DNA of 64,000 nucleotides from Roridomyces roridus. Its lineage: Eukaryota; Basidiomycota; Agaricomycetes; Agaricales; Mycenaceae. The position numbers and the translations under genes are program-made. Below, in pieces: positions 9,741-56,310 of this stretch. Position 1 is the stretch's first letter, and every line of letters begins with the position of its first letter. The stretch lies in assembly GCA_029378245.1 (NCBI GenBank), contig JARKIF010000015.1, positions 1,364,001 through 1,428,000 of the forward strand, written 5' to 3'. The notes beneath the pieces were generated by a model. That model worked only from the letters and a program-made list of their open reading frames with translations, did no database searches and was not told the origin of the DNA.

Positions 9741-10160
9741 CACTTCAGGCTACCTCAAAGCCTACCTACTTAGGCTTGACATATGGCTGAGGGGTGGGGC
9801 CTAAGTAGGTCCCAGGAAGTGGGTATACCCAGTGGTGGTGCACCCACCCACAGCGGTGGGTATACCTACCTGGGGATACCCACCATGTCACGTCACACTG
9901 CGTGGTGGGTATACCCACCTCCCACCGAGCCAGCTCGTTTTTGCGATTCTGGGGGCTGTATGGGGCGGTTTTTGTGCCTGCTTGTGGCCCCCGGCTGGTG
10001 GCTAGCAGGCCACCTCGTTTTGGGGATTTTCACAGCTGTACGGGGCAGTTTTTGTGCCTGCTGCTGGCCCTGGCTGGTGGCTAGTAGCCCAGCTCGTTTT
10101 GGGGATTTTGGGGCTGTACGGGGTGGTTTTCGTGCCTGATGCTGGCCCCTGGCTGGTGGC
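9741..10160 (+). repeat. Left terminal inverted repeat of the KDZ element
   Basis: Nearly identical, inverted, to 26249-26668. The first 170 bp carry three copies of the GTGGGTATAC(C)CAC palindrome; the inner part is a tandem run of 60-75 bp units containing 'ggctggtggctag.agcccagctcgttttgg' and 'gctgtacggggc.gtttt'. Degenerate copies of the unit continue to about 10330 on the left and outward to about 26155 on the right. Open frames here are repeat artefacts. Confidence 0.85.
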
Positions 10161-10724
10161 TAGTAGCCCAGCTCGTTTTGGCGATTTTCACGGCTGTATG
10201 GGGCGGTTTTCGTGTGGCCCCCTGGCTGGTGGCTAGCAGCCCAGGTTGTTTTGACCAATTTTGGTGCTGTACTGTCTGGGGCGGTTTTTGTCCCTGCTGC
10301 TGGGCTGCTCATAGTCAACTCGCTTTTGCAATTTTACCACAATTATGGGCTCATCTTTGGGCCTCTTCCTACTGCTGGGCTAGTAGCTGATGGCCCAGTC
10401 CAATCGTCATATTTCCTGTCCAATTGACGTTGGGTTTCATATCCAGCTTGCTTTTGCCATTGTGGCACACGTACCATACAGCTGGTCCCAGGTCATGGAT
10501 AGTGGCTGACAGTATGCTTGCTTTTTGTATCCTTCTCGTGTCTGTTGTTGCATTACTATTAGTATTAGCCAGGGTGATTCTCGCCATACTTAAACAGCCG
10601 TGTTGGCACATATGCTAATATCAATCGATCGAGGGACAACAACCTTCAGGAATTAATTATACAAGACACCATACCAGCTGGAAAATTTGGCTGGTCTGCA
10701 CCATGGGCACACATGCTCACTGTG

Positions 10725-11225
10725 GGTATACCCACCATCTCATTTGCAAGGTGAGCATACTCACCGTGGGTATACCCACCATGCCATTCGCAAAGTGGGG
10801 ATACCCACTGTGGGTATACCCACCATTCCATTTGCAAAGTGGGGATACTCGCTGTGGGTATACCCACCTCACATTGGACAGAGTGGGTATCCCACCGAGG
10901 GTATCCCGAAAAAGGTGAGGACCCTCACGGTGGGTATCCCCACTCCCACCAACGCAAGGTGGGTATCCATCCCCACCCACTGTGTTTTTGGCAAGGTGGG
11001 TATCCCCACTCTCTCCTGTTTAGAAGTGGGTACACCCACCTCACAAAGATGGAGAGGTGGGTGTACCCACTTCTAAACAGGAGAGAGTGGGGATACCCAC
11101 CCTTCCAAAAGCACAGGTGGGTGTACCCACTCCCCTGCCCCAGCAAGGTGGGTATACCCACCGAAACCATGATTCTGGGTAGGTATACCCACCTCAAGTT
11201 CTTCTTTGTGAGTATACCCACCTGG
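10725..11225. repeat. Left subterminal array of GTGGGTATACCCAC palindromes
   Basis: About 20 perfect or near-perfect copies of a 14-bp self-complementary motif (variants GTGGGGATACCCAC, GTGGGTGTACCCAC, GTGGGTATCCCCAC) at a spacing of roughly 20-40 bp. A similar array lies at 25320-25790 at the other end. Dense subterminal palindromes are the usual form of transposase binding sites in large DNA transposons; that function is inferred. Confidence 0.8.
10995..11101. repeat. Perfect 48-bp inverted repeat with 11-nt loop
   Basis: 10995-11042 is the exact reverse complement of 11054-11101; the loop is ACAAAGATGGA. Each arm contains palindrome units of the subterminal array plus the non-array word CTCTCCTGTTTAGAAG, so the hairpin arose by inverted duplication and not by chance from the array. 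Confidence 0.85.
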
Positions 11226-25319: not shown

Positions 25320-25790
25320 CAAAGGTGGGAATACCCACAATTAAGGAGAGCCACAGGTGGGTATACCCACCGCTGAATAGTCCCGGTGAGGATACCCACC
25401 ACCTTGGTGGGGCAAAGTGGGCATACCTCCAGTGGGCATACCCACTTGTCATGTTCCAAGAGTAGGTATCCCCACCTTGCAAACAGGAGAGTGGGGATAC
25501 CCACCTCACTGGTGGCACGGTGGTGGGGATACCCACCTCGCGTTTGGTGGAGTGAGGATACCCACCGTCAGTGTACTCCCCTTTGTGGGGATACCCGCGG
25601 TGGGTATACCCACCTCATCATGGAAAGAGTGGGGATACCCACCGTGAGTGTACTCACTGTTTGTGGGGATACCCGCGGTGGGATACCCACCTCACTTTAG
25701 AAAGAGTGGGTATACCCACAGTGAGTATGCCCACCTTGGAGATGAGACAGTGGGTATACCTACAGTGGGTACACCCCCTTTGAAATTAGT
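25320..25790. repeat. Right subterminal array of GTGGGTATACCCAC palindromes
   Basis: About 20 copies and variants (GTGGGGATACCCAC dominant, also GTGAGTGTACTCAC and GTGGGGATACCCGC). Same motif and similar density as 10725-11225, but the sequences between the motifs are not the same, so the two arrays evolved separately under a shared motif constraint. Confidence 0.8.
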
Positions 25791-26248
25791 AGGGCAGTTT
25801 ATAGAGGGTCGGCACTGTAGCGGACACGGTACAATTGTACTTTTACGGCGTAGTATGGCACCACTCTGTACCGTATCCGTACTGTACTGGGCCCGGTAGC
25901 CAGGACACCGGCAGCACTCATGGTGACCCAGATTGCACATTGGTTCTCGCATAGTTAAATTCAAAAAGGCTAGACACTAAAAGCGAAGACACTATACGAA
26001 AACCGAACAAAAAAATCACTGAAGCAAACTGGGTACCACCAACCCAGCAACAGGCATGACTGTATGGACCGTCATTTATGGCTTGAAAATATCAAAAATC
26101 AAGCTAGTTCATCAGCTACTAGCCAGCACACAAGAAAGAACCGGTACGGGATGCAAAAGGAGCTGGGCTGCTGGCACCCAGCCAGGGGCTAGCACCAGGC
26201 ACGAAAACCGCCTGTACAGCCCTGAAATTTGCCCAGCAAGCTGGGCTG

Positions 26249-26668
26249 GCACCCAGCCAGGGGCCAGCATCAGGCACGAAAACCACCCCGTACAGCCCCA
26301 AAATCCCCAAAACGAGCTGGGCTACTAGCCACCAGCCAGGGCCAGCAGCAGGCACGAAAACTGCCCCGTACAGCTGTGAAAATCCCCAAAACGAGCTGGC
26401 CTGCTAGCCACCAGCCGGGGGCCACAAGCAGGCACAAAAACCGCCCCATACAGCCCCCAGAATCGCAAAAACGAGCTGGCTCGGTGGGAGGTGGGTATAC
26501 CCACCACGCAGTGTGACGTGACATGGTGGGTATCCCCAGGTAGGTATACCCACCGCTGTGGGTGGGTGCACCACCACTGGGTATACCCACTTCCTGGGAC
26601 CTACTTAGGCCCCACCCCTCAGCCATATGTCAAGCCTAAGTAGGTAGGCTTTGAGGTAGCCTGAAGTG
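26249..26668 (-). repeat. Right terminal inverted repeat of the KDZ element
   Basis: Reverse complement of 9741-10160 with very few differences. It ends ...AGCCTGAAGTG and is followed by the target copy ACCTCGC at 26669-26675. Confidence 0.85.
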
Positions 26669-35506: not shown

Positions 35507-36667
35507 CTACGCCGTCGCCACCCGGAACTCCAGCTCAGAACCCGGCTCCTCTCTATTGGTATTGGCTTTTTCGTCAATCTTTGGAGGTGCGAATCTGAGC
35601 GTGCTGAGATCTGTTGCGGTTGAGGGAGACCATGCTTGTGCCTGTGTGACACGCAGGATTATCAAGAGAGGTGCGATGGACTGTTACTTCACTCAGGAAC
35701 GTGCGCTGATAAGTTGACACAGTTGGCGCACCTGCGTTTGGCCCAGCAGAGGAAGACCCAGCTGCAAGACCGGACTCTTCAAGGCGTAGGTGATCAATAC
35801 GAAAATGGCGTTTATCGAATATAGGGCTGCGGATTCGACCAGCAGGGCGGTGATCGTGATATAGGTCGTATCACTGTTTGGCCCCATGAGCCTGCGATGC
35901 CGGTAGCGCATGTAAAGGAGTCGGCCAGCGATGAGGGATGTCAAGATCAGCGTCGTGGAGATGGACATGGTCCAAAAAGAAATTGCGAGCTTGGCGCTGA
36001 AACTGCTCCAGAAACTATTTCCCTGCTCGCTCATTTCTGCCATTCTCATTGCGGAGATCACTGCGGAATCGGTCAGTTTGAAGTTACACTCGAGTAGCCG
36101 AAAAACCCACCTATCGAAGCTAGGAAGCCTACAAGAGGAAGCGCCACAACGAAGTAGTTGCACGAGCAGAGCACCCAGAACCGGTACAACTGTTCACCCT
36201 CTTCAGTATGGGAGGACATGAAAAACGGCGGTGAGCTTTATACCAATATCGCGTCCTGGACCCATGTATTGACTATGCAGACAGAATCAGTGACCACTGC
36301 AGACCAGTCGTTCGTCGATGCAGCATATGCCCCCGGTCCTCCTGGAAAATTCCTGTCGTCGATGAACGTCTTCCCAGCCAAGACTATATGCGTGGAATTG
36401 CCGATGGCTCCGAGGATGAAGAGTATGCAGATGACACCGAGAAGCCCGCAGGTTCTCAACGCAACTTGACGCTGGCGACGGGCATAGACGGCGTTGACGC
36501 ATTGGATGAAGAGGATAAAGTGGATGCCTTTGAATCCACTCAGTCTCATACACTTTGGGAACCTGGAAGAACGCACCGAACCCGACTGCCCCGATAAACG
36601 ATCCAACCAGGATGCAACGCTCGCGGAACACCTCAGTGGCCGTTTCGTCGACTGGCGCGAAAGACAT
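35507..36667 (-). CDS. 7-TM orphan membrane protein, agaricomycete family (5 exons, about 318 aa)
   Basis: Minus-strand exons 36667-36577, 36527-36244, 36189-36111, 36060-35732 and 35680-35507 close in phase to 319 codons. Seven hydrophobic segments: LVGSFIGAVGFG.HFILFIQ, LLGVICILFILGAIGNS, AVVTDSVCIVNTWVQDAILLY, YFVVALPLVGFLASI, LAISFWTMSISTTLILTSLI, ITALLVESAALYSINAIFVLI and SIAPLLIILRVTQAQ. The motif IDDRNFPGGPGAY after TM2 and VESAALYS in TM6 are hallmarks of a large agaricomycete receptor-like family with no assigned function. Short C-tail. Its start faces the intergenic region 36668-38236. Confidence 0.82.
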
Positions 36668-39843: not shown

Positions 39844-42191
39844 ATGGGCATCATTTGGCTCGCAGGTCCTATCACCTGGCACAGTTCGCGCGTCGCCGAG
39901 GGGTACGACTACGATGCCATGACTGAGCACGAGCGATGGCTCATTTCTGCACGCTGGCACGACGTGAATGCCTTTCTTCGATTTCTCTTTTGCATGTTGA
40001 ACGAAAATGGATATCGCAGTGGTACACCGCCGACTGGGACTACGGTCAGACGACGGTCGAGTTTTTTTGTGCCGCCATCGGATGCTGCCTACTCTTCAAC
40101 GTATACGCAAGGCTGCGCGCACGTTCTTCCGGGTCGGTCATCTCTCCCCTTGCCTACGTTTCACCCACTCACTCATTCCAAAGCACCAACCGAGTCATCG
40201 ACAAGCTCACCGCCGTCCTCCGCTACACCGTCGCCCGTCAATGGCAATTCCGCCTGGGCACGACGTACTACGCCCCGCCCCTCGCTGCGATCATCGCAGT
40301 CTGCGGTCTCTGGATCTTCGTCCTCACGCTCACACTCGCCGCCCGCCCCTTTTACTGGCCGAATCCAGCTATGGGCGAGAGTCCACCGCTCGCTACGAGG
40401 TCTGGGTGGATTAGTATTGGTATTATGCCTTTTATGATGTGCGTCGTGCGTTTTCGTGCTCGTTAGGGTGCCGTGCTGACCGGTCGGCAGCGCCTTTGCT
40501 ACGAAGGTAAATTGGGTTAGTGTCCTGACGGGCACCTCGCATGAGAAGCTGCAAGTAGTTCCATCGGTGGAGTGCGCTCATCATGTGTGCGTTCTCTTCC
40601 CTACTCCCTCTCGTTCTCGCGCTCACGCCGCACCCTAGATATCACCTCCCTAACACACACCTTTCCCTTCATCGTAACCAACATCCGCATGGGCATGATG
40701 CAAGCCATGTGGGACCCACATGCGTCGTCCTTTTACTGGACGGGCGTCGCAGCGTTGATCCCACAGACGTTCCTCGTCGCGCTCTCTTGGGGGGTTATCC
40801 GGAATCGGTATTATGAGATCTTTAAAAAGTGCGCCTTTCTTTCAATGTTTGGAGATTTGATTCGTATGGTGCTGACGAGGATGTAGATTCCATTTCATGC
40901 TCTCTGGCCTCTTCATGGTGGCACTCTTCCTGCACGTCGGGTTTACGCTCACCTCTTGGTACGCGCCTCCCCTCCTCCTCCTCCTCCTCCTCCTCCTCCT
41001 CCTCCTCCTCCTTTGCTGACAGCGCACACGCAGGGACTACTTCTGGGCGACTCTAGCAATATGGGGCTCCACCTGGCTCATTCGCACAGGTCGTACGCTT
41101 TGGAACACGCGTCTCGGTCTCCGCACCGTCGTCTCCAGCGTCGGTTCGACTTCCGACCTCGTCAAACTACGGATCGCCACCCCCGCGTCATTCAAGTGGG
41201 TGCCCGGCCAGCATGTCTTCGTGAGGGTCTTTGGGCTGGGGGTACATGCGTTTAGCTCGCATCCGTTTACCATCAACTCGGTGCATGCGGTCGGGGAGGG
41301 CAAGGAAGCGGAGGTGGAGCTGATACTTCGTGTCCATGGTGGGATTACACGTGCGCTTGCGAAAAAGGTCGAGGATGGGAAGCGGGAGTGGACGACGCGC
41401 GTGGCGATTGACGGGCCGTATGGCGGGGTACATGCCCCGTTGGAGAGGTATGAGAAGGTATACTTGCTCGCTGGGGGCACTGGTGTGTTTTTCCTTCCTT
41501 CATTCCTTCCGAAGGCTGAAAGTTCCTGATAGGCGCGACGTTCGTCCTCCCCATCCTTACCGATCTTGCTGCCAAAATGAAGGCTGGTGGGAAAGACGTG
41601 GTGTGTAAGCGCGTCGAGGTCGTCATCGCCGTGCCTGATAGCGGTGAGTGTAGTCTCTCTCTCTTCCTCCCATCTACTCTCCCTCACTTCCTGATCACAG
41701 ACGCCTACACCTGGATGCACCCCTCCATCGCCGCCGCCACCTCCAAGCTCCCGGACACAGACACAGCGTTGGGCGTTCGGGTGTACCACACCCGGGCGTA
41801 TTCAGGCAAGGGGGATAACAAGAGCGACATCGAGGCGGACCTCGAATCAGTATCATCGGAATCTGAGCTCACCGGGCGGCCTGATTTGTTCGGTATAGTG
41901 AGGGAGGCGCACGAGAGCGCGGAGAAGGTTGCCATTATTGGTAGGTTCTTCCTTCCTTCCCTCCCTAACTTCCCTTCTGCGACGTCGAGGCTGATCACGA
42001 CGCCAGCATGTGGCCCCGACTCCTTCCTGTACGACGTGCGTAACGCCGTGGCTGATGCGCAGCTCGTCATTGTGGATGGATTTGGGAAGTGTAAGGATTT
42101 GTTTTTGCATACGGAGACGTACAGGTGAGTGTCCGTTGCTTGTTCTGATTCTTTGGGTGCTAATCAGTGATTATGTGCTTTCAGCTGGTGA
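39844..42191 (+). CDS. Ferric/cupric reductase (FRE/NADPH-oxidase-like), apparent 1-nt frameshift
   Basis: Transmembrane metalloreductase moving electrons from NADPH through FAD and haem to extracellular Fe(III)/Cu(II). Exon 1 is 39844-39963, exon 2 from 40020. Seen: several TMs (PPLAAIIAVCGLWIFVLTL, IGIMPFMIAFATK), haem-region histidines (SHEKLQVVHRWSALIM), FHFMLSGLFMVALFLHVGF, the FAD motif HPFTINS, GPYGG, the NADPH-binding GGTGATFVLPIL, the terminal CGPDSF and a short end at TGA 42189-42191. Introns keep phase throughout except at 40558-40562: LQVV and HRWSA are in different frames because one extra C is present in GTTCCATCGG. This is either a sequence error or a real null mutation. A (CTC)n tract lies in the intron at about 40970-41035. 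Confidence 0.8.
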
Positions 42192-42350
42192 GGATGGAAT
42201 GGAATGATATTTCCTTTGTACTTTTAGAATGTTACTGGATGTTCGAATATGAATGAAATTGTGAATGACGAAAGGGCGAGGGCCACAGGGCATCAGTGGC
42301 AGTGTTTTGACTCGTGCCGGCAGCCGCGTTGCTCTCGTCCTGCCACCACC

Positions 42351-44467
42351 ATGAGAGATGACATACCCGAGGAAATTCTGCAGGAGATCTTCTCTCCCTC
42401 TCTAGACGTCCTCGACGAGACATTCTCCTCCCATGGCTACGCTGCTGTCCCTCCAGAGGCTCTCGACGAGCCGAGTTCCTCCATCCTACTCGTGTGCAAG
42501 ACGTGGCTCCGCATCGCGACGCCTCTACTCTACAATACCGTCATCCTTCGTAGTAGAGGCCAAGCGCAGGGTCTAGAACTCGCCCTCCGTAGCAACCCCA
42601 AGCCGGGACTTCTCGTCAAGACTGCGCCTTGAAGGAGGATATTGCGTCTGCATGTACACGATTCTGCGGGCATCGACAAACCTAACCGATATATGTGTTT
42701 CCCTGAATCTCAAGGAAGAAGACAGCACCGAGGGAGCGTGTCGCGGCTTGCCGTTGATCAACCCCGTTCGTCTCATCCTTGCGTACCAGCCGATGCAATT
42801 CTTCATCCAGGGAACGACCCGCGAGCTCGTGGACACGATCGTTACATGCATTCCGAGCTGGGAGAATCTGGTGCGCACCAAACAGGTTCTTTGCATCTCA
42901 CTTTCCTGACTCTCTCTCAGGCGGTGGTAGAGATGCCCCACGACTCGCCGGACAGCGTGGTCGCTCACAACGGGATGGTTGCGGTGCCGTTGAAAGCTGC
43001 AAAGAATCTCCGCAGTCTCGTTCTCTCAAGCTACGAGGAGCATTTATTCGTCCATGGCAGGATACAGTCGGAAACCCCCATCCGGACCACTCATGAAAGA
43101 TTGTGTAATATCATGAGACTGAAGGCCGCTGCCGCAGTATAATATTGGGGTCCGGTAGATGGGTATATGACCTGTATTCACAAAAAATTTCAGGTCATAA
43201 GAGCTTGCCCTTCGTCGTGTAGAAACAAAGTTTTCAAGATCATGCCAACATGAGATAAACCCACATCCGGACCAAATCATTATTACTGACCCGGTACGTG
43301 TGCTTTTCCCACGGGTTAAAGTCTCTCTTGGAAGGCCCATCGACATCTATATCCTCATAATACTATAGCCCTCCAGGTGCCGCGGTGGTTGAGAGAAATA
43401 ATCAAATGACTTTGGTGGATTCCGTGATTTGGGTGTTTCAGTGAGCACCAAGTAAATTGACCATATCTCGATGGTCAGCTTCCATTTCTGTCTGCAAATT
43501 TATGTCTGGGGAGTCCACCAACATGGATATGACTCAGTAAAAATTCAGCCCCATCAGAGCTGCCGAACTGCCCGAGTCCGGTGGTGGGTCCGGTCCGGAT
43601 GGGGGTTTCCGACTGTACCCCTATACATCTCGACCATCGCGTCGAATCTCTCTCTGCAAGAAATTCGGCCCAAGGAGCTGCCTCGCAAGTCGTTGAGCAT
43701 CGGATTCGAGCAAGTAGTGCAGAACAATGCCAGACTTGCAGAGCTATTGGACCTTCGGTAACCCGGCCTTTCTTTGATCTGCCCGCTCGCCGATTCAACT
43801 TTGCAGGAACGTTGGCATTTTCCCCAAGCCATTCTTCTATCCAGCGCAGCTTGTTGCCGATACACAACTCGAGGACAATATCTGGGGCCTTGTTCTCTTC
43901 CACTTATTCCACCAACGTCAAGGCAGAGGTTTTTCGCACTCGGAGGAAGACGACGCAGAAATATACTTCCAGGAGCTCGCCAAGGCGAGGTCATATCTAT
44001 TCGTGTGCAGACGATTTGCGGTTAGTCTCTGGTCTCATTGATATTCATCACTTGTTCATGGTCAACAGCGCCTCGGGACTCCCTATCTCTACGAGGATGC
44101 ACATCTCGATACGTTGGGGCATTTGCGGAATTTTGCGCAACGGCTCGCGGATCAACCGTCCCTGGGACTCCATGTCCGTCGCCTCTATGTCGGAATGGGA
44201 TTCTGGGGTGACCAAGATCAGCTGGAACCCCTCGAGGACATCATCGCGCGAGTTCCTGGTTTGGTGATATTCAATTCGTGGTCTGCCCCCTTGCCATCAT
44301 CGCGGATCCTAAAGCATCTCGCTCTTCATTGTGGTGGCAGCCTCCGTAGGCTACAAATACCGATTGCTGGATCCATGGAGGAAACGATCAACCCTTCTAT
44401 TTTCGCCCACTTCCGGCGGCTGCGTTTCCTTGGCTGGGATTCCAAAATTGCCTTCGATACAGCTGGT
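42351..44467 (+). pseudogene. F-box-family pseudogene, copy with three lesions
   Basis: Begins like the intact copies (RDDIPEEILQEIFSPSL-like F-box, SSILLVCKTWLRIATPLLY). Lesion 1: near 42617 two nucleotides are missing relative to the paralogues (LLVK then KLRLEGGY in another frame), giving an early TGA. Lesion 2: a 551-bp TA-flanked element at 43065-43615. Lesion 3: the gene stops at AFDTAGG (about 44467), where a truncated Ty3/gypsy element begins, and the 3' exons are absent. Between the lesions the leucine-rich-like parts and exon boundaries of the family are well kept, so the decay is fairly recent. Confidence 0.85.
43065..43615. mobile_element. 551-bp MITE with 24-bp inverted ends and TA target duplication
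   Basis: Both ends read CAGTCGGAAACCCCCATCCG followed by GACC inward; TA flanks each side (43063-43064 and 43616-43617). Removing it plus one TA restores GRIPLYISTIASN as in the paralogues. No coding capacity. The TA duplication points to the Tc1/mariner superfamily. Confidence 0.88.
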
Positions 44468-47246
44468 GGCGGCGCCGTTTGCATCTCCTTTCTTTTTCGT
44501 AAAGAAGAAAGACGGAAAGCTCCGACCGGTACAAGACTATCGAAGGTTGAACGCAATCACGATCAAGAACCGGTACCCGATACCGCTGATTTCCGAGATA
44601 ATGCATAACCTTCGGAACGCGACGTGGTTCACAAAGCTGGACGTGCGATGGGGTTACAACAATATCCGGATAAAGGAGGGAGACGAGGAGAAGGCGGCGT
44701 TCATCACTAATCGGGGGTTGTTTGAGCCCTTGGTGATGTTTTTCGGGTTGACGAACTCGCCGGCGACCTTCCAGTGCATGATGAACGATATCTTTGCCCG
44801 GCAGATCGCGGAGGGTCGGGTTATTGTCTACTTGGACGATATTTTGATTTATTCCTCCAACAAGGAGGAGCACCAGAGAACGGTGCGCGAGGTGCTGCAA
44901 ATCCTGCAGGAGAACGACTTGTACTTGAAACCCGAGAAGTGTGAGTTCGAGAAGCGCGAGGTCGAATACCTCGGTGTAATTATCGGTGATGGGAAGATTC
45001 GGATGGACCCCGTGAAGGTTGCGGGGGTGCGGGAGTGGGCGGAACCCAAGACGGTCAAGGAGGTGCAGAGCTTCCTTGGATTCCTCAATTTCTATCGTCG
45101 GTTTATTGCGGGGTTCGGGATCCACTCCAAACCCCTGACACGTTTGACGAGAAAAGATTACCGGTGGCGATGGGGAGGTGAAGAGAGGAGAGCGTTCGAA
45201 AAGTTGAAGGATTTGGTCACCGCCGAACCGGTGCTGCACTTTCCGACCGACAATGGCGAATGGCAGATGGAAGCCGACTCCTCGGATTTCGCCACCGGGG
45301 CTGTGCTTTCTCAACTCCAGAACGGGGTCTGGGTCCCGATCGGGTTCTTGTCCAAATCTCTTAACGACACGGAACGAAATTACGACATCCACGACAAGGA
45401 AATGTTGGCGATTATGCGAGGTTTGTACGAGTGGAGGCATTTCCTTCAAGGCAGCAACAAAACGTTCGAGATTTGCACGGACCACAAGAATTTGGCTTAC
45501 TTCATGACGACGAAGAAGCTGAACCGAAGACAGGCACGGTGGTCGCTGGAGCTGAGTGAATACGACTTTTTGCTGATCCACAAGCCGGGCAAGATGCATA
45601 ACAAGACGGATGCCCTTTCGAGGCGAAATGGCCATGAAAAGGGGGCAAAGGATAACAGCGATATCACGTTGCTACCGGCAGATAAATTTCAACAAATACC
45701 GAAGGAGGAATTTCTGCGAGCAATCCCGGACCAGGAAGGAGGGGACCAATTTTTGCAACGCATCCAGGACGCCCGCGACAAGTGGAAGGATGCAGCCAAG
45801 GAGGGTTTGGCCAAGAGCAAGGATGAAGAAGCCGATGAGGAGAACCCGACCTGGCAGGAACACGACGGGTTCTTGACTAGGCATGGATCAGTATACGTCC
45901 CTTCCGACAAAGAGCTACGCCATCACATAACCCGAGCTCACCATGATACGTACATGGCCAGTCATCCTGGGCAATATCGAACGGCGGAATTGGTAGCACG
46001 GAATTACTACTGGCCATCCATGACCCGGGACATCAAGCGATACGTAGCCGCTTGTTCGACGTGCCAGAAGACGAAGACGTTTCCATCCAAACCCCGTGGA
46101 CCATTGTCACCAAACGCAGTACCCGAACGAGTATGGCAGAACATCTCGATCGACCTAATCACGAAGTTACCGGAGTCAAAAGGATATGACAGTATCGTGG
46201 TGATTGTGGACCGACTGGGCAAAGGAATTCGGGTTATTCCCTGCAGGGAACAGATTACAGGCGAAGGGATCGCCCGGATATATCGAGATAATGTGTGGAA
46301 GGATTACGGGTTACCAGAGGTGGTGATCAGCGACCGTGGAACACAATTCGTGGGTCACTTTATGCGAGACTTGATGAAGCTTCTGGGAATGAAGTCGAAT
46401 GCGTCGACAGCGTATCATCCGCAAACCGACGGTCAAACGGAGCGGGTGAACCAAGAGGTGGAGCAGTACCTCCGAATCTTTACAAACTTCATGCAGGACG
46501 ATTGGGCAGAGTGGCTGACCTTGGCCGAATTCTCCTACAATGACAAGGTCCATGTGACGACGGGCTTTAGTCCCTTCTTTATGACTCTCGGGTTCCATCC
46601 GCGGAAAGGAATTGAGCCGTTGCGAGAAGTCCCGACGGAGAAGGCGATGGAATTCGCACAGCGAATGGAGAAGGTACGGGCAGAAGCCGCAGCGGCAATG
46701 CGCCATGCGCAGGATGTTATGAAGAAATACTACGATCGAAGTCGACAACCCGACCCGGGGTACAAAGCAGGCGATAAGGTGTGGCTAGAGGGGAAGAATC
46801 TGCAGACGCACCGACCCACCAAGAAATTCGAGGACCGACGCTATGGTCCTTTCCCTGTGGTGCGCAAGATTGGGTCCCTCTCGTACGAAATCAAAACGCC
46901 GGCATCCTGGAAGGTTCACCCGGTTTTTAATACGGTCTACCTTCGACCCTGGGTGCCACCAGTGGCCGAACATCAGAAGACGGTGGACCCACCACCCCCA
47001 GACGTGGTTGACGGTCACTATGAGTACGAGGTAGAGGAGATTCTGAAAGTCAAGAGAGGCAGTGGGAATCAGCGCAACACCTTGCGCTACTTCATCAAAT
47101 GGAAGGATTATCCCTCGGCCGAATGGACTTGGGAAAAACGCGCCTTGCTGGATGGGGCGGAGGAATGCATAGAGGAATTCTACCAGAAGAACCCGACCGC
47201 ACTCCGTGAAGAGCGGGTTAACGGACGATGGAAGATCGTGTCCTGA
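44468..47246 (+). CDS. Truncated pol: reverse transcriptase, RNase H, integrase, chromodomain
   Basis: An uninterrupted frame. RT: PFFFVKKKDGKLRPVQDYRR, YLDDILIYS (catalytic DD), GFLNFYRRFI. RNase H: MEADSSDFATGAVLSQ, FEICTDHKNLAYF. Integrase: an HHCC zinc module (HHITRAHHD...CSTCQKTK), the DDE core (SIDLITKLP, SDRGTQFV, TAYHPQTDGQTERVNQ). C-terminal chromodomain: YEVEEILKVKRG, YFIKWKDYPSAEWTWEK, which in chromoviruses directs integration to heterochromatin. The first in-frame codons before about 44470 belong to the F-box pseudogene, so the true protein start is absent. Stop TGA 47244-47246. Confidence 0.88.
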
Positions 47247-47282
47247 GCGCTTCGGGACGCAGCGCTTGAACAGGGGGAATAA

Positions 47283-47643
47283 TGTCATGATATGACCCCA
47301 GGCCACAACCCGACGGGTTGTAACCCGATCAATCATCAACCATCAATACTCTAATCAGTGATCATCACTGATCGGCCGGGTCTTGTCTCAACCCCTGCTT
47401 GGTACTCCACTCTCCCCTGCATTTACACCCCTACTTGTCGCGATCGCCCCTGCTCCTACCCCCTACCCCTCGTACCTAATTCGATCATGTAGTATATATA
47501 CCCGTCTACAGTCTCAGTACTGTAGACGAATCTAGTCTATTCTCCCTACGGCTTGCTCTACCTCTTGAGTCTCGTCTGCTGCTCTTCGCTCGGTCGCCTC
47601 GTTCGTTGCCGACTAGAACCTGACTTAGCCCTAGGTGTTGACA
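47283..47643 (+). repeat. 3' long terminal repeat (361 bp)
   Basis: Follows the purine-rich tract; begins TGTCATGATATGACCC and ends GGTGTTGACA, giving TG...CA ends with a 5-bp inverted TGTCA/TGACA. It carries a TATA-like AGTATATATACCC at about 47492. No second LTR is present in the window. Confidence 0.8.
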
Positions 47644-48392
47644 CCACATACCCAGACCTACCGTCGACGGTCTCTTCAATTCGAGCATGTCCTGCTTGCG
47701 TCGCCATCGGCAGTCGTTGACCCTTCTCCCCGTCTCACTTTAGCCGTTCGCGTCGTTACTGTCGATGTCTTGGATCCACGCAATTTATCGTTGTTCATTT
47801 CGTACTCCAGAAGCACTATCCGAATACATTGAAGGAAGTTCCCCACTCCATGGGATCGCCGCCCCTCGCCGTATGCGATGACCAACCCCTCGTTCTGCAA
47901 GTGTTAAATGCCATCGACTGTCATCGCTAAATGCTGATTCAGAAGGCCGCTCACTTCGATGTAGATGCATGAGACTGCAACTCAATTAGAAGTCGCAAAT
48001 GTGCCCGAATTGAGTCGGCGGGTTTTGTTCAAGATACCGAAGTGCATTCGCCGATGAATGTATCATCCATCACAAAGCCGCCCGTTCAATGCTGGGCCCT
48101 GGTACTTTCACTTGCTTATCTCTCGGGTGTTCTGAAAACAAATTGTCATCTCAGCCCGCGCTCGTAGCACTTCCATCACCGTGGAACTTCTAATGCAATT
48201 TTAGGCTTTCCCCGATGCGCTGACTCGCAAAGAATACAGACACAAATTCATCGTTCAATGGCAACCAGGGATGCTGGATTCCAATTTCCTTCCAAATTCA
48301 CGGGTCCAAGAGCCCAGACCGTATTGTCTGCCCTTTAAAAGCGGAGGGCCTCTAGTCCAGCCTCTCATTCAACTCATCCCATTCAAACTACC
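47644..48392. promoter_or_regulatory. Upstream region of the secreted repeat protein
   Basis: About 750 bp, no supported gene. Close to the start is a TATA-like CTTTAAAAG (about 48334), followed about 50 nt later by a C/T-rich leader and CTACCATG at 48393: the compact promoter layout of a well-expressed secreted-protein gene. The remainder shows nothing I can name. Confidence 0.4.
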
Positions 48393-49272
48393 ATGCGTTT
48401 CCAGCTCTCCACCCTCTTCCTTGTTTTCGCCTCCGTGGTGATGCTCGCTCACAGCATTCCCCTCCCTCATGATATCAACGCGGACGGCAGCATTGGTACG
48501 AGACTCTTCCTGGTCTCGAAAATTCTCTCATTTACCTACTTCGTTTAAGGCTCTGAGACCCAGCCTCCTCGCCGAAGCCTTGTCGTCCGCAAGGATATCA
48601 GCGAGGACGCGACCATCGGTAGGAGACTCAACATTCTCTCGTGCTCATTCACCTACCTTGTTTCAGGCTCCGAGTACGAGCCTCCTCGTCATCGCGTTCA
48701 GGATATCAATGCGGACGTCATCATTGGTAAGTGACTATTCTTCAACCCTTCTCGAAAATTCTCTCGTACTTATCGACTTGCCTTGTTTCAGGCTCTGAGA
48801 CCCAGCCTCCCCGAAGCATTGACATCAATGAGGACGCCGGCATTGGTAGGAGAATATCAATCGTCTCAAAATTTTCCCGTATTCATTTGCCTACCTCGTC
48901 GCAGGCTCTGAGACCCAGCCTCCCCGCCGAAGCATTGATATCAACGAGGACGCCACCATTGGTAGGCGACTATTTCGAATTCTTGCCTGCAAGATCTCTT
49001 GTACTCATTCCGTTTCAGGCTCTGAGACCCAGCCTCCCCGCCGAAGCACTGATATCAACGAGGACGCCACCATTGGTATGAGGCTGTTCCTTGCCTGCAA
49101 AATGTTCTCGGACTTATTTATCTACTTCGTTTCAGGCTCTGAGACTCAGCCTCCTCGCCGAAGCGTCGATATCAACGAGGACGCCACAATTGGTAGGAGA
49201 CTATTCCGCCAAAATATCTCCCTCTCATTTACTTACCTTTTTTCAGGTTCTGAGTACGAGCCTCCTCGCTAA
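48393..49272 (+). CDS. Small secreted tandem-repeat peptide precursor (8 exons, about 160 aa)
   Basis: Exons 48393-48495, 48550-48618, 48667-48726, 48792-48845, 48905-48961, 49019-49075, 49136-49192 and 49247-49272 close to 161 codons. A signal peptide (MRFQLSTLFLVFASVVMLAHS) is followed by seven copies of a unit of the type SETQPPRRS-DINEDATIG; outer copies vary (SEYEPPR, RHRVQ, DINADVIIG). All introns are phase 1 and lie at the same codon (ATT G|GT...AG|GC TCT GAG), so each internal exon encodes exactly one repeat. Most units contain a dibasic RR, the usual Kex2 cleavage context. The overall design matches fungal Kex2-processed repeat proteins, some of which are precursors of cyclic RiPPs or of secreted peptides. 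No Cys is present. Neighbours are not obvious RiPP modification enzymes. Function unknown. Confidence 0.85.
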
Positions 49273-49657
49273 ATAATAACGCACGTGAAGATTGTTCAAG
49301 TATCGTGGTACGTTAATACTTGGAGTCCTTCTGAAAAACCTGACTCACGGACGGAAACTAGAATCAGGTTCAAAAAAAGCAGAAGGATATATTGTACTCG
49401 TATTTCTAGGTCTAATTTGTGTGCTGTGCTAATTTTTGGTTGAATTACATAAAGTCTTGTCGGAAACGCCGTGAACCCCAGAATGGCCGCGTCTATTGGT
49501 TTATTAGTTTGAGTCTGATCGTGATAGCCTGTCGGTCCCGTCACCGACTCCCCCATCGGCCAGTGGCATCGAGGCTCCCACTGCCAGTCCCGCCCGAGGA
49601 AACTCGGGCCCGTAGTCAAATGTCAAGGGAATGACGGACTCGCGGAGGTGACCACGA

Positions 49658-50002
49658 TCATGTTTGAGCGGTAGCCATGGCCACACATCCACAATCTGGT
49701 GATTCCCGGGATACATCTTGCCCCAACCGAACGTGAGGGACCTGAGACCTCCACAATTTGCAGATATGACCAATAAAGGGGCCTGCCGCCTGGTCGATTG
49801 TATCGAAGCGCACCCTTCGAAGCCACGGCGATACCCTCACGAAGACCTCGCAGAACAGCTCGGGCGGAAGACATCTCACAGGGCTGAAATCGCTCGAGGT
49901 TGGAGGAGAAGATTTTCGAGCAAGTCCGAGGTCAAGGCGAGGCGAAGCCTTGCATGTCTTCGCCCGAGTTCGGATTTCCTTTTCCCCGTTCCTCGAACGC
50001 AC
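49658..50002 (-). pseudogene. F-box-like N-terminal fragment
   Basis: On the minus strand a short frame contains SPVRCLPPELFCEVFVRVSP and GPFIGHICKLWRSQV, the usual F-box pattern of agaricomycete F-box proteins (LPPE...IF, G.IC..WR). It ends at a stop soon after, and the expected continuation is partly in another frame (SVIPLTFDYGPEF). Probably a truncated or frameshifted remnant. Confidence 0.45.
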
Positions 50003-50245
50003 GGTTTCGAGACGCGATTCGCCGGATCTCTCGTGACCTCAGCTACATTGCGCATGCTGTAGTATTCCGAGTCTTAAAAAATTATTTTTAAGCTCGGTCT
50101 TATCGGCCCGTTTCCCGCCAAAGTGGGGGTCCAATTTTTACCGATGACATCTTTGAGCCCTGGTTGTTTGGCTCTTACAACTTCCTTATAAGGTAATTTT
50201 GGCGGTGTTCTGGCTCCATTTGGTTGCTCTTAGTCAATTACTATT

Positions 50246-50416
50246 AAGGTAGAGGACATGCACGTACGGTTCACCTGTCAAGGTCACGGGGACAGTCTAT
50301 ATATGGCAGGTTTGCATTGTTCTGCTGGCAATCCGCTGGCACCTGGCAACCAAACCTGCCATATATGGTGTGTCCCCGTGACCTGAGGTTAACCGTACGT
50401 GCATGGCAGCTACCTT
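50246..50416. repeat. Foldback (long hairpin) repeat
   Basis: Arms 50246-50314 and 50351-50416 are reverse complements with a few mismatches; they share AAGGTAG, GCACGTACGGTT, CACGGGGACA and ATATATGGCAGGTTTG. The loop is 36 nt. No coding capacity. Likely a small foldback MITE. Confidence 0.75.
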
Positions 50417-51088
50417 ATGCCTGCTCACTTCTGCCGGCCTCCGTGTCATTAACATCTCTGCCGACGGCGAGTCGGACGCGGCACGGGACCGGAGGTCTGT
50501 TTGACAGCCGACGACAGTTCCGTTGACAGGCACACCTCTTGTTTTCTTGGTTTTCCACCAGCTTCGGGTTCCCACCGCCACGCATCGACTGTTTCAACAG
50601 CCCATTCCAACTCCCTCGTCTCACGTATGTAGGCCTGGCGCGCGTCTCCTGTGTCTCTCTCCTTGGCATCTCACCCAATTTCTTGGTTTTCAGCAAGTTT
50701 TCAGCTCACTTACAACAGCCCTTTGGACGACGGACCCATCCTCTCTCGTGGTGTGCGGAGGAAATACCACCTTTCTAGCATATTTTTCGCATCTGGCTTG
50801 TAAACCATCCCCCGGGACTCATTGTCACCCGTGGGCCGTGACCCGTCATCTCACCTCACTTTGTCAGTGCGAATGCCTAAGTAGTACAAAGAAGAAGCAA
50901 CACCTCCTGTTATCATCCCCAACTTCTTGTGGCCACGGGAATCACAGACTTCACCAGGCTCAACCTACAGACTCGGATTGCCATGCACCCGCAATGGCCC
51001 TCAAAAGCAGGTACCACATGACGAGACTGGGGGCTCTCACACCTTCCATGTGTTGCTCTCACTTGGTTCTCATCACCTCCCCCCTCCC

Positions 51089-53088
51089 ATGCCGCCTCTA
51101 CAACGCCAGGAAACCCGCGGAAGCCTACGAAGCTGGTGGTCCGACAGCAATCCAATGCTGCACATCAGCCCGACAATCAACATCCATGCCCTTGCAAAGC
51201 CTCTCATGAGGTTCATGTATCATCGGCAGGCGCTCGGAATCATGGAGCAGAATCGCGATGCACCACTCTCTGAGGAGTTGTTGGAGATCTATTCGAGCTA
51301 TCTCTCGTATGTGATCGAGGAATCAACCTCTACACCATTCACTCAACAGCTCCATGATCCTAGAAGCCATTATGTGTCGCGCGCCACGCAAAAATTGGTT
51401 CAAGCACGCGTGTGGGAGAGAGTTATCGCAGACCCCGAGGCAACCGACCGACTTGAACTGTATTCGCCGTTTCTCGATGACGTTCTGCACATGTTGGAAT
51501 CAAATACTGGCCCGCTGGAATCAAGCGACCGTCATTTGCTGCGCTTGGTCTGCTCGGTCATGGAAACTCTTCTTCTCCGTTGCTTCGGGGTTGGCAACGT
51601 ATTTGACTCAAGGAAATGGGAACCGATACTGTGGCAAGTCTTCCTTGAAAGCATTGTCCTGACCATTCATTGACGAGTATCAGGAATGAGTCCAACAGCG
51701 CTAAGAAGACTATCATGCTCGACATCACGTCCATACTGGGTGTCTGCCGTACTTCTCAAGCAGTTGCAATAGCATTGCTGGAGTCGGATAACGTGGAGAC
51801 CAGGCAGTACACATGGTTGCTCATCCATTATTTGGACGGGTTCACCCAGATGGCCCTGATTCAAACGATTCCCACAGAAAAATGGGGACATATTTTGAGG
51901 CAAGTCGAACTTTGATCTTTCTCACTTGTTCTCATAATAATGTGAATAAACAGCAAGGGAAGTTGGTCGGGCCAGGAACAGTTGACGTCTGTGCTTATCA
52001 AGATTGCTGGACACCGCAAGGGCGCAGCAGTGATCATCGCTGCGAATATCTTGGAGCCTCTGGACCTTCACTTGGATCAGAAAACGCCAACTGACATGGA
52101 CTCTATCTGCATTCTCCTCGAATGCCTGGTCCAACATGGTTTTGCTGTCCGAGGTATCCTCAAAACCGACCTGATGAAGAGATTTGCCCATGCATGCTGG
52201 TGCGTCCGACCTTGCTCTCGCGGACCCGTGATTTGAATGTTGGCCATTCAGTCAATGCCCGGATCAATATAGATTTGACTGCAACGGTGGTCACCGTGAA
52301 TTACCTGTCGAGGAGCTCACCAAAAACCCGGATCTCGCTGCAGCTATCTCGGCTGCACTTGACACTGAGCATCTGACAAAGGGGTTGAACTTCAAGGCTG
52401 AATGTACCCGAACGCGGCTGTGTGTTCTCATCAACGCTTTGGCACAACATAAAGGTCTTGTCTCCGGCCTCCTTCAAGCCAATATCATGGAACATTTAGT
52501 AGAACGCTGGCGGTGGTGTCCCTTTGTTGAATATGTTCCGTCCTGAGCTCACGCGGATCAGGTACGACTCCGTCCCAGTTTCTAGGAAAGCGGCAGTTGC
52601 CCTTGCCACAATGTCCTGGTCTCCGAACAGTGCGACCGCCGTTTTAGTCGCCCTCGGTGGGATGGAAAATCTCATGGAATCACTTTTGTTCCCGCAAACC
52701 AACTTGAACTGCAGCTGTGAATACCCATGCAGCCCTTGTTATCTCTTCATACGTCTTACGGGAAAGGGAAATGTGGCCCATTTCTTCCAGTCACCTCAGG
52801 GTATCGAGCGTTTGGAGTCCTTTGTAATGTAAGCACGATTTCTGTTTGATTCACCACATGCTCAATCTCCAACTTAGCAATCCCCAAGCGCATGAAGATG
52901 CGTCCTTCAAAGCAGCAGCTCTATTGGCTGACATCGGTCAATCCTCTGAGGCTGGCGCAGCGCTTGTTGACATGGCCCGAGTTTACAAGTGCATTCGTGA
53001 ACGGGCTACCACCTCATCTGCCTCTTATTGGCTCAGAATAAGCCTAGAATGGTTTCTGCAGGAGTTACCCGACGGATCGTCCTCGTAA
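51089..53088 (+). CDS. ARM/HEAT-repeat-like protein with two GC-AG introns (6 exons, about 581 aa)
   Basis: Exons 51089-51633, 51684-51899, 51954-52199, 52252-52512, 52562-52828 and 52878-53088 close to 582 codons. The N-terminus (MPPLQRQETRGSL, SWWSDSNPMLHISPTINIHA, AKPLMRFMYHRQAL) belongs to an agaricomycete family I recall as helical-repeat proteins without known function. The rest is amphipathic alpha-helical repeats (SQAVAIALLESDNVETRQYT, AAVALATMSWSPNSA, FKAAALLADIG), like armadillo/HEAT units that bind protein partners. Introns 1 and 2 begin GCAAGTC instead of GT; only with these does the frame stay open. Start chosen at the conserved MPPL. Confidence 0.75.
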
Positions 53089-53334
53089 GAGTCTTATTCA
53101 CCGTTGTACCACACCTTTTCATTCGACACGTGTAGTATTTCTAGCGAATACTAACTGGGAGTCCGACTTGTTCAACTCGTGAGTACGAGTTCCAGTGCGT
53201 GTTACAGATGACGACAATTCCAGGTTTGAATGGAATTCAGAAGAAGGATGGTGCAAATTCAGGAAGAATTACACCACGAATGCATTTCTGTACCGTTTAT
53301 GTAAACTCACATGAAGTTATTTGTATCCAGCACA

Positions 53335-54574
53335 TCAATGACAGTTCTCCAAAACCAACTCCGCATAGTCCGCCATGAGCCGATGCGTCTCTTTGGAGGG
53401 ATGTCTGTTCGCCGCATGAGTGGGGAAAAAATGCAACACAAGTAGAAGCTCACCCCGGAAGCCAATAAAACGTATTCAACGGCGTCCCACACTCGCCCGT
53501 CAAGTTTGTCTGCGAAAGATTCGGTATGCAAGGTCCCACCGTATCGTACCCAAACGCCGCAAAGCCCGGCTTCGTGCCCATGACCGCCGTCCAAAGGGGC
53601 GCGAAATCGACGTAGGCTACGTTGATGCCCGTGGCATGCAGAGCTCCCAGACCGGTGAATACAGCTTGCTTCCATGCGTCTCCGGTGGGTGCGTCTGTTC
53701 CGCGTCCGTAGTCGTCGAGGACGATGATGTTTTTGGCGTTGGTGGGTGCGGAGGTTAGTTGTTTGATTAATGCGAGGAGGTCGGCGGCGGCTTCGGGGAG
53801 ATGGTCGCCGTCGGCTGTAGTCAGTGGAATTAGATCTGTTGGGAAGCAGTTGGGAGATTGTCACGCACTTGACGAGGCGGAGAAATCGCTAAAGAAAGGC
53901 TTTTAGATTTGCGTGGTATGTGGGGGAACCAGCTCACTTGATCCCGAAGAATACAGTATACAGTGTCGTGTTTGGATTTAAGACGTTGTTTTGGCTGAAG
54001 AACAGAGCAGCTGGATACCAATTAGACTGATCATTGCCGCTGAGAGTGCGAGTACTCGCCTTGATGCACGAAATCCGATTGACCGGCTTTACTCGGCCAC
54101 AGAGTAACATTCACAACCGCGCCGGAGACCTATACATTCCTTGGTTAGAAAAGCGAGATGCCAGAGGTAGATCCAAACACACCGCGTAGTCCATGATCGT
54201 AAGCCCCAAATCGCTCGCGATGTCTTCGGCCCACACGGGCCCGTCGGTGACACGTCCGCCTGCACGGGGGCTGATACCGTTCAAAACGGCGGCGGGAAGC
54301 GGACCACCATCGCTGCGGCCTCCAGAAGTATACGAGTCCTAAGCAAGTTGAGCGTGTGTCGAATGGAAAGAAAGACGAAACCTACGCCGAATGCGACGAG
54401 TGTCTTCATACCGCTCGTTGAGACTCCAGCATTGGTGTTGGCCACGGTTCCGCCAATGGTTCCACAGGTCGGAGTTATAGCTAGGTGCACGCCGTCGTTT
54501 GTCTGTCGAGGGAGTTGCCCAGTAGCCAAAGCGAGGGGTACAAGGACGACGACAGTCCAGAATCGTTGCAGCAT
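53335..54574 (-). CDS. GDSL/SGNH esterase, CE16-like, secreted (one unresolved exon junction)
   Basis: A secreted carbohydrate (acetyl) esterase-like protein. Minus-strand exons 54574-54386 and 54338-54183, then about 54131-54067, 54010-53938, 53835-53454 and 53404-53335. Signal peptide LQRFWTVVVLVPLALATG; block I TLVAFGDSYTSGG (nucleophile Ser in GDS); then NTTLYTVFFGI, ALHATGINVAYVDFAPLW and the C-terminal FYWLPGHPSKETHRLMADY (catalytic His region). Exon 3 appears to use a GC donor (GCGAGT). The join between 53938 and 53835 is off by one in phase; family members have GIND here, so two bases seem to be missing. Either the allele is broken or a splice site is misread. Confidence 0.7.
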
Positions 54575-56310
54575 GCTTCTGTTGCTCGTATTAGTGGCCA
54601 CCAGAATTTTCTCGGCCCCTTCTTAAGCAGCAAGATACAGCATCCGTTCGTCGAGCATGGAAGCCTTGTGACCGTCATGGGATGGGGAGGGACCGAAGAC
54701 CTTCCGACCGGTCCGTCGTGGGAATTGACATCCAAAGTCTTCTTGAAACGATATGAGGAAGGGGTCAGGCCTTAGAGAGCCACGGTGGGCCAGTGGGCGC
54801 CAGGAAGAAAACTTGGAAGTCGCAGGAGACAAGAAGAGTTGATGGCCGCTGATGGCATCATCTCCCCATCCGGCGCCTCCACCGCACCCCTGCCTGCCCG
54901 CTGGAAGAGACAACCTACCGACCCAGCAGCTACCCTCGTCTTGTAGCGGCTCAGCAGATGGAAGGATAGTCATCGATTCAATGGAAATCTGGTGCGTCGC
55001 CGCTGGTCGTCCGAAGCGGGACTTGACAGTACTCGCCTCACTGCTCGACGTGCCCGCTACTCTCGCTTTTCAAGTGGTGAGTCCCTCGGTGGTTTCATAT
55101 TTGTTTTTTTGTGGATGGGGTCATCGGGTGCGCCACGGAACTGCGTTGTGTGTGCTTCCGTGTCTTTGGACCGGCGCCCTTGCCTTTCCCTTCTTCTTGA
55201 CTTGGGCAGCCGGGACGGGGACCTTCTTGCCGTTCCATACAAGGAGTCGACACGGGCCGACGAGGCTGTCCACTCCCACCGGTACCCCCCACTGGCTCCT
55301 ACGCTCCCAAAGACCCTCGATGCCACCCGCCTTTGATTTGGCGACAGAGGTCGTCCGCGACGACGTCTCTAACCCTTATCCCCCGACCTTTCTATCCTTC
55401 GGGTCTCTCGTCCTCCATGCGCCACCCATATTCACAATCGTCTTCCAGAGCATACGGGCGCGTTTTCTCACAATTGCAAATGGGCCTTCCCACTCATACC
55501 CGCTGGAGCCTGGAGGTGCGTTTCTGTATGTATCACACTGCACCACCGTTTTGGCGAGGGTTGCCGCGTAACGTCGATGCGCATGTCTTCGACTGTTCTG
55601 GCGCTGTCTGCTGCAGAAGCCCACGCGGGGACGAGCACTCGTCATGTGTGCGTATGGGCCTTCGGCCGACTCGCCTGCCCAAGTCTGTCTCTGACCCATC
55701 CTCAGCGGCGTCGGGGCCATATTGCACTTTTTCATTCTTCTTTCTGTCGCTGTCCTCTATCGAGGACTCTTCATTCCGAGGCGGAGCATTTGCATACTAC
55801 CTCCTCTACGGCTTACATAATCACATCACTCTTGCACATCTTCACATTTTGCGAAGCAAGGGTCGTCTGGAGACGGTCGCTCCCGGTGGAGGGTCCGCTC
55901 ATGGAGGTGCCATACAGCTTCTCCCTGTGTTGCCTTGTCTTTCCGGGACGTCGTTGACGATGTCATCCTCCCTGCTTTCGGTCACTTGGCCATTCTCCTG
56001 TTTTCGCCTTCATTCGTTTGCTACGGACAATGTATTGGAGCCATTCACTCTTTTCGCCCCAGGGGCTGCACTCCCCCTCCTCTGCCGGCTCGTGAAGGGC
56101 ATCGTATCGGGCTGAAGGTCGTGCGGCGCGTGTGCCAGCCACAGCGTCGTCGTCGACTCGGGGCTTCCTTGCCCTACCTCCATGGGCCCCGAGTTTCTCG
56201 GCTGACAATTCTGCACCTACACACTCCCCTTACTCACTTCGACTTGTGACAGACTATATAATATCCTCTGTACTTGCAGACATCCGAAATCGGAATATAT
56301 TAATCCTTTT
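54575..56310. other. Region with weak coding signals only
   Basis: Overlapping C-rich open stretches on the plus strand between about 54850 and 56250 include hydrophobic runs (AILHFFILLSVAVLY, ILPAFGHLAILLFS) and splice-like words, so a multi-exon membrane protein is possible. I could not join them into one phase-consistent model or match a family, and no start or stop is favoured. Confidence 0.3.

Follow-up and report, generated by a model that had tools for sequence, protein, structure and literature searches.

A candidate secreted repeat-peptide precursor with one repeat per exon, and its paralogue family, in Roridomyces roridus

The stretch of DNA analysed here, referred to as the window, comprises 64,000 nucleotides of Roridomyces roridus (Mycenaceae, Agaricales) contig JARKIF010000015.1, which is labelled C57 in the following, and corresponds to C57:1364001-1428000. 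Its forward strand bears an eight-exon gene at positions 48393-49272 (C57:1412393-1413272), with the ATG at 48393 and a stop codon that ends at 49272. The extent of the gene had been given correctly by the original prediction, which was made from the letters of the window, and splicing confirmed both the ATG and the stop. Joining of the exons, with lengths of 103, 69, 60, 54, 57, 57, 57 and 26 nt, gives one frame of 160 amino acids that consists of the signal peptide MRFQLSTLFLVFASVVMLAHS and seven units of the form (S)IDINEDATIGSETQPPR(R), the cleanest of which read SIDINEDATIG-SETQPPRR. All seven introns are GT-AG introns of 48-65 nt that interrupt the same Gly codon in phase 1, in full agreement with the predicted eight exons separated by phase-1 introns at one common codon.

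All exons are read from the forward strand. Exon 1 (48393-48495) encodes the signal peptide MRFQLSTLFLVFASVVMLAHS, whose cleavage site was judged by eye, and the N-terminal half of unit 1 (IPLPHDINADGSI-G), and is followed by intron 1 (48496-48549, phase 1, 54 nt). Exon 2 (48550-48618) joins the C-terminal half of unit 1 (GSETQPPRR) to the N-terminal half of unit 2 (SLVVRKDISEDATI-G), and the subsequent intron 2 (48619-48666, phase 1, 48 nt) has a length divisible by three and would give no in-frame stop when retained. In exon 3 (48667-48726), GSEYEPPR is followed by HRVQDINADVII-G, with RH instead of the dibasic site at a position where the 12-unit duplicate described below has RR; intron 3 (48727-48791, phase 1) measures 65 nt. 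Exon 4 (48792-48845, GSETQPPR-SIDINEDAGI-G) has a monobasic junction and is one codon shorter, and is separated by intron 4 (48846-48904, phase 1, 59 nt) from exon 5 (48905-48961, GSETQPPRR-SIDINEDATI-G). Intron 5 (48962-49018, phase 1, 57 nt), exon 6 (49019-49075, GSETQPPRR-STDINEDATI-G), intron 6 (49076-49135, phase 1, 60 nt), exon 7 (49136-49192, GSETQPPRR-SVDINEDATI-G) and intron 7 (49193-49246, phase 1, 54 nt) lead to exon 8 (49247-49272), which supplies the C-terminal half of unit 7 as GSEYEPPR and a stop, so that the end of the protein is the end of a cleaved unit. The seven repeats foreseen by the original prediction were found, but their sequences vary from unit to unit, and the cassette recurs with a spacing of 111-125 bp in place of a fixed 110 bp. 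Four of the seven introns (2, 5, 6 and 7) are stop-free and divisible by three, so the frame would survive their retention.

Relatives of the gene were sought in the whole assembly (90.8 Mb, 501 contigs) by DNA and pattern searches followed by gene modelling, and six multi-unit loci with 4, 7, 7, 8, 10/11 and 12 units were uncovered in the R. roridus genome. Apart from the 7-unit window gene, these are a 12-unit gene on the same contig (C57:1226741, L009), a 4-unit gene (C57:1501515) with a second copy on contig C349, a pair with 10 and 11 units on C72 and C157, a 7-unit gene on C460 with a degenerate last half-unit, whose counterpart at the end of C357 (L015) gave no model, and an 8-unit gene on the reverse strand at C57:1447463, whose copy on C280 is identical over the 663 bases compared. 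The 8-unit gene was reached through its signal peptide, its unit having drifted to DNIDADAVIGSEGPLPR. Three loci are present twice on different contigs, about 93-99% identical over their main blocks, as would be expected of an assembly that keeps two haplotypes. The 4-unit gene C57:1501515 is the deposited R. roridus gene FB45DRAFT_870712, named hypothetical protein.

The counts that follow refer to seven gene copies, namely the window gene, L009, L011, L012, L013, L014 and C57:1447463, with the C349 copy counted in place of C57:1501515, whose exon 1 has a different frame; L011 and L012 (C72/C157) as well as the window gene and L009 are near-copies, and the seven are therefore not independent. 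Gene models were anchored on conserved splice motifs, and the phase-2 first intron of C57:1447463 was set by hand. Since such anchoring fixes the ends of exons and not their lengths, lengths divisible by three are not built into the models, and yet all 52 internal repeat exons, lying between phase-1 introns, are divisible by three. The 60 introns are 47-65 nt long, one of them in phase 2, and leave remainders of 0, 1 and 2 in 22, 17 and 21 cases. The repeat exons are joined in the same way in the NCBI model of FB45DRAFT_870712, although its first exon differs. The exon-per-repeat plan is beyond chance, as five other multi-unit loci have it too.

The window gene is part of a segmental duplicate (47639-56310) that matches C57:1225987-1234299, about 185 kb upstream on the same contig, in blocks of 91-97% identity, and the other copy of this segment carries the 12-unit gene. 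Exons 1-5 and the last three exons of the two genes correspond one to one, and the 12-unit gene has five complete cassettes extra, situated between exons 5 and 6 of the window gene, while the shared gene parts differ by three exonic and two intronic substitutions. The C72 and C157 genes are one cassette apart. Five cassettes against five substitutions in the former pair, and one cassette in the latter, mean that whole-peptide change was not slower; in the pairs compared, it kept pace with point change or outran it. The predicted growth by whole cassettes is borne out by both pairs, 7 versus 12 and 10 versus 11 units. A repeat exon enclosed by two phase-1 introns leaves the frame intact when its cassette is gained or lost, and the original statement that the array cannot break the frame holds for such whole-cassette changes only. 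Misaligned recombination among similar repeats would add or remove whole peptides with the frame untouched, and each repeat exon would span one cleavage site, carrying the C-terminal half of one peptide and the N-terminal half of the next.

The introns resemble each other, as had been noticed, to a lesser degree than the exons (mean identity in L009 of 0.69 for introns versus 0.84 for exons). Similarity matrices of exons were correlated with those of the upstream or downstream introns in four genes, giving eight tests with permutation P values. The correlation was clear in one of the eight (L009 downstream, r 0.55, P 0.002), followed by L012 downstream (r 0.24, P 0.06) and six tests with P of 0.16 or more, so that duplication of exon and intron as one unit is not established at every step.

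The window also holds several mobile or repetitive features. Its copy of the duplicate differs from the C57:1226741 copy by a 946-bp insertion at 50066-51011, which the latter lacks. Near 50330 lies the centre of an imperfect hairpin about 173 bases long, and the insertion is perhaps a nested small transposon. A Ty3-type retroelement, seen as a long open frame at 44313-47246 with matches to reverse transcriptase, RNase H, integrase and chromodomain, ends about 400 bases before the duplicate, and no long terminal repeat was found for it in 42001-48200. Tandem arrays of the near-palindromic GTGGGTATACCCAC occupy 10712-11130 and 25550-25775. Close to them, at 9930-10303 and 26154-26479, lie 79-80-bp tandem arrays of opposite orientation. 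Both kinds of array are possibly the ends of one large element enclosing the KDZ transposase frame at 20836-21990.

Besides the multi-unit loci, the genome contains seven genes of three exons and a single unit, whose signal peptides are related and whose introns are in phase 2 and then phase 1. These genes are found on C349, at the C57 end, on C466, on C465 or beside the 8-unit gene; C466 has genes in common with C349. They encode about 47-56 amino acids, with one peptide after the signal sequence. Six of them were modelled by enumerating all two-intron models ending in PR or PRR. The enumeration yielded a single model for each of three genes; when laxer donors were allowed, two further genes also had a single model each, and C466:6268 had two. 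In three of the six the donors are unusual, namely GTCAGC, GTCTTT and, as a GC donor, GCAAGT. The unit follows the pattern ...NEINADATI-TTETKPPRR-stop, strongly diverged in C466:6268. As only models with a PR or PRR end were admitted, the PPR(R) end of these six genes is not independent evidence; the intron phases of 2 and then 1, shared by all seven enumerated models, were not imposed in this way. The seventh gene, C57:1445319, beside the 8-unit gene, has the same plan as read by eye.

The 8-unit gene C57:1447463 retains a phase-2 first intron, a feature that, judged from the gene models, links the single- and multi-unit forms. The repeat arrays probably go back to a three-exon gene with one unit and introns in phase 2 and then 1, which would set the direction from single to multiple units. 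In three single-unit precursors (C349:8069 and C349:9757 on the reverse strand, and C466:6268 on the reverse strand in one of its two models), paired cysteines bracket the unit, as PC or GC after the signal peptide and EC or DC before PPR, and these may possibly represent disulfide-closed versions of the same peptide.

Selection on the units was estimated as dN/dS within gene copies on a 16-codon core. The values were 0.20 for the window gene, 0.18 for L009, 0.16 for L011, 0.19 for L012, 0.43 for L014 and 0.014 for C57:1447463, and in L013 pN was 0 across three exons. Synonymous differences among units amount to 0.24-0.48 per site, which shows that the units are not merely recent copies. Six core positions (2, 3, 7, 8, 13 and 16) show the same residue in every one of the 52 units, namely S, E, P, R, D and I, respectively. 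With dN/dS of 0.01-0.20 in five of the six measurable gene copies, the units are under purifying selection.

The predicted secretion of the window protein accords with its hydropathy, the 11-residue mean of which reaches 2.95 at residue 8 and stays at or below 0.85 after the signal; the signal peptide was judged by hydropathy and by eye, not by a trained predictor. Matches to the same stretch occur on C72, C157, C460 and C349 and at three places on C57. Of the 52 internal junctions in the seven gene copies, 42 carry a dibasic site behind PPR; in the window gene four of the six do so, and the two remaining junctions read PPRHR and PPRS. The 8-unit gene has no dibasic site at any of its seven junctions, which read LPR-D or LPR-H instead, and when it is left out RR follows PPR at 42 of 45 junctions. 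The proposed Kex2 release at RR is partly supported; the 8-unit gene, the most diverged member, has LPR only. A kexin may cut at Pro-Arg. Five of the six multi-unit loci end in PPR or LPR and a stop, as if the last peptide needed no cut, and kexin P-domain (PF01483) matches were obtained at two places in the genome.

The KEP-like logic originally proposed is supported, and so is a putative secreted precursor with one repeat per exon. We consider it probable, at about 0.75, that the product of the window gene is a KEP-like chain of several peptides that is secreted and processed by Kex2 and Kex1 into linear acidic peptides of about 17 residues. The signal peptide would carry the chain into the secretory pathway, kexin would cut after Arg-Arg, or at a single xPR, behind GSExxPP, and Kex1-like trimming would then leave the linear peptides, for example SIDINEDATIGSETQPP. 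The predicted free forms are SIDINEDATIGSETQPP(R/RR), STDINEDATIGSETQPP and DNIDADAVIGSEGPLP(R), and units 2-4 of the window protein may stay joined. The released peptides would act outside the hypha and may have a role towards other organisms.

Database searches placed the family in no described group. Pfam gave nothing for the window gene at E <= 0.01. At E <= 10, weak matches of the 10-unit, 8-unit and window proteins appeared, with PG_binding_3 (best E 0.0004), Dockerin_1 and DUF6802 among them, none of which reached the curated cut-offs; they were rejected, as 10-unit proteins with permuted units also matched, at E <= 1 in seven of nine cases and at E <= 0.01 in three of nine. A PDB sequence search with the 10-unit paralogue returned no match at E <= 10, and the window protein found none at E <= 1 among 4669 protein-database candidates. 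A profile of five paralogues, which included a partly wrong C157 gene model, had FB45DRAFT_870712 as its one match at E <= 10 among the 8000 candidates sharing most words. These protein-database searches retrieved no orthologue outside R. roridus, and the one annotated relative retrieved for the core sequence, which the original prediction did not recognize, is from the same species.

The main rival to the KEP reading is modification of the peptides by UstYa enzymes, a matter raised by the original comparison with dikaritin-type RiPPs and its suggestion to look for UstYa genes beyond the window. The genome contains 28 matches to UstYa PF11807 at E <= 0.001 and 36 at E <= 10; the window has no match at E up to 10, and the nearest one, C57:1497777, is 84.5 kb downstream. 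The wider search revealed two UstYa genes, on C57 this nearest match and its partner, that flank the 4-unit paralogue on either side, at 3.5 and 4.8 kb, on both C349 and C57. Both flanking proteins are Pfam-confirmed (PF11807, 51 and 49 bits), the UstYa protein near the C57 end is identical to the deposited FB45DRAFT_838606, and a Mycena vulgaris UstYa shows 73% identity over 75% of the query. The UstYa genes on C349 enclose two single-unit precursors and have two more just outside, all within 15 kb. For 23 hand-merged UstYa places in 90.8 Mb, the expectation is 0.003 within 6 kb of a random point; as six loci were examined and several UstYa matches form close pairs, a chance meeting is not negligible, and the co-location is suggestive, not proven.

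These findings, together with the placement of the single-unit genes, speak for a new non-aromatic RiPP family, in which the UstYa enzymes at the C57 end and on C349 oxidise, cross-link or otherwise alter the peptides and act in trans on dispersed precursors. The other five multi-unit loci argue against it, their nearest UstYa match being 50-135 kb off or absent from the contig, as does the scarcity of aromatic residues: five of the seven window units have no F, W or Y and the other two only a Tyr, which lies outside DINEDATIG, and the 4-unit gene has no F, W or Y after its signal peptide, like most units of the family. Tyrosinase (PF00264) has 11 matches in the genome, none of them on C57, C349 or C466. 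A family of this kind is possible but doubtful. A broader version, in which a peptide-hormone-like basidiomycete family with one signal peptide and intron plan supplies non-aromatic acidic peptides to two dedicated UstYa enzymes, with the exon-per-repeat plan as a frame-safe dosage dial, would amount to a new RiPP class, and we hold it with little confidence. The window gene as a dikaritin precursor is not supported, and it is not filed as one because most units are without aromatics, tyrosinase lies elsewhere and no UstYa gene is near it.

Unlikely as well is an intact acidic repeat chain as the product, for instance a wall or matrix protein whose length is tuned by repeat number and which undergoes no cleavage. 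The 8-unit paralogue is in its favour, being devoid of dibasic sites and yet the most constrained unit measurable, and so are the two window junctions that have none; the single-unit genes, which encode one peptide after the signal, and the regularity of RR after PPR outside the 8-unit gene speak for release. The sequence D-x-N-x-D-x-x-I recalls an EF-hand or dockerin loop, and each released unit could be a small loop that binds Ca2+ or another metal: in every one of the 52 units, positions 1, 3 and 5 of the loop are D/N, N/D/S/T and D and position 8 is I, and the 10-unit paralogue has a sub-threshold Dockerin_1 match (E 0.008). We regard this as quite improbable, since the Glu of the last ligand comes one position early, Gly at position 6 is present in only 14 of 52 units, the window protein has no dockerin or EF-hand match, and the three permuted-unit proteins with matches at E <= 0.01 hit families other than these, one of them with an E value of 2e-13. 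A tandem repeat that is decaying or purely selfish and has no conserved product, which the nearby Ty3-type and KDZ frames, the degenerate C460 end and the C357 copy without a model might suggest, is already disfavoured and scarcely credible given the 52 in-frame internal exons and a within-copy dN/dS well below 1.

Further genes near the UstYa-flanked locus deserve mention alongside the KEP reading. Two neighbouring alpha/beta hydrolase genes, L036 (C349:15501-20394) and L034, adjoin it and match Pfam Abhydrolase_1; their motif gives them the look of proline iminopeptidases, and trimming of PP-ending peptides by them is conceivable. A receptor role was weighed for the seven-helix-like membrane protein genes next to the 4-unit paralogue and dismissed, as 20 genome matches on many contigs make the co-location mean little. 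A distant relative of these genes lies in the window at 36241-36667 on the reverse strand and has no Pfam match.

Among known systems, KEPs come closest. With the KEPs of PMC6339444, PMC7329392 and PMC9769878 the window gene shares the signal peptide, the near-identical repeats and occurrence in Agaricomycetes, where linear KEP peptides have been detected according to PMC9769878; its dibasic sites stand at four of six internal junctions. One repeat per exon with phase-1 introns, found in the R. roridus family, is not described in the accessible text of these three papers; the words "intron" and "exon" are absent from the main text of both PMC6339444 and PMC7329392, and that of PMC9769878 has "intron" once, for cDNA cloning, and no "exon". 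The single-unit relatives are a further difference from KEPs. With dikaritins and ustiloxin-type RiPPs the family has in common the repeat precursor, the Kex2-type sites and the UstYa (DUF3328) genes that flank one paralogue, whereas here most cores are free of aromatics, the contigs are without a tyrosinase match and the window gene is without a UstYa gene nearby. As far as the consulted sections of PMC7329392 go, a tyrosinase gene belongs to the ustiloxin and phomopsin clusters, DUF3328 genes are near 103 of 1680 Basidiomycota KEPs, and one of two readings offered is that cyclisation hardly occurs in basidiomycete KEPs. The SP7-like effectors of Rhizophagus, in the available portions of PMC11333574, are likewise secreted, with hydrophilic imperfect repeats in variable number and a conserved intron that unites the family; this intron precedes the first repeat and no repeat-per-exon structure is given there, the comparison being one of gene structure only. 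The micro-exon genes of schistosomes likewise assemble secreted proteins out of short exons, a parallel confined to gene architecture. Their introns reach 5 kb against 47-65 nt here, and Kex2 repeat logic does not figure in the part of PMC10526429 consulted. Among the listed titles and starts of abstracts of freely available papers, none shows an exon-per-repeat KEP. The KEP kind is known, and the gene design and the family appear undescribed in the literature searched.

KEP surveys find repeats in predicted proteins, and a precursor split into exons of 54-69 nt by introns of 47-65 nt is easily missed in gene prediction. The window protein unmatched at E <= 1, and the single annotated relative with a different first exon, indicate how easily such genes are lost. 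Should they be common, the secreted peptides of fungi have been undercounted. With one-peptide and many-peptide genes side by side, the family is a test case for the question whether peptide copies are gained and lost faster when their exons are symmetric and in phase 1, and the UstYa pair beside one member makes a non-aromatic UstYa substrate testable.
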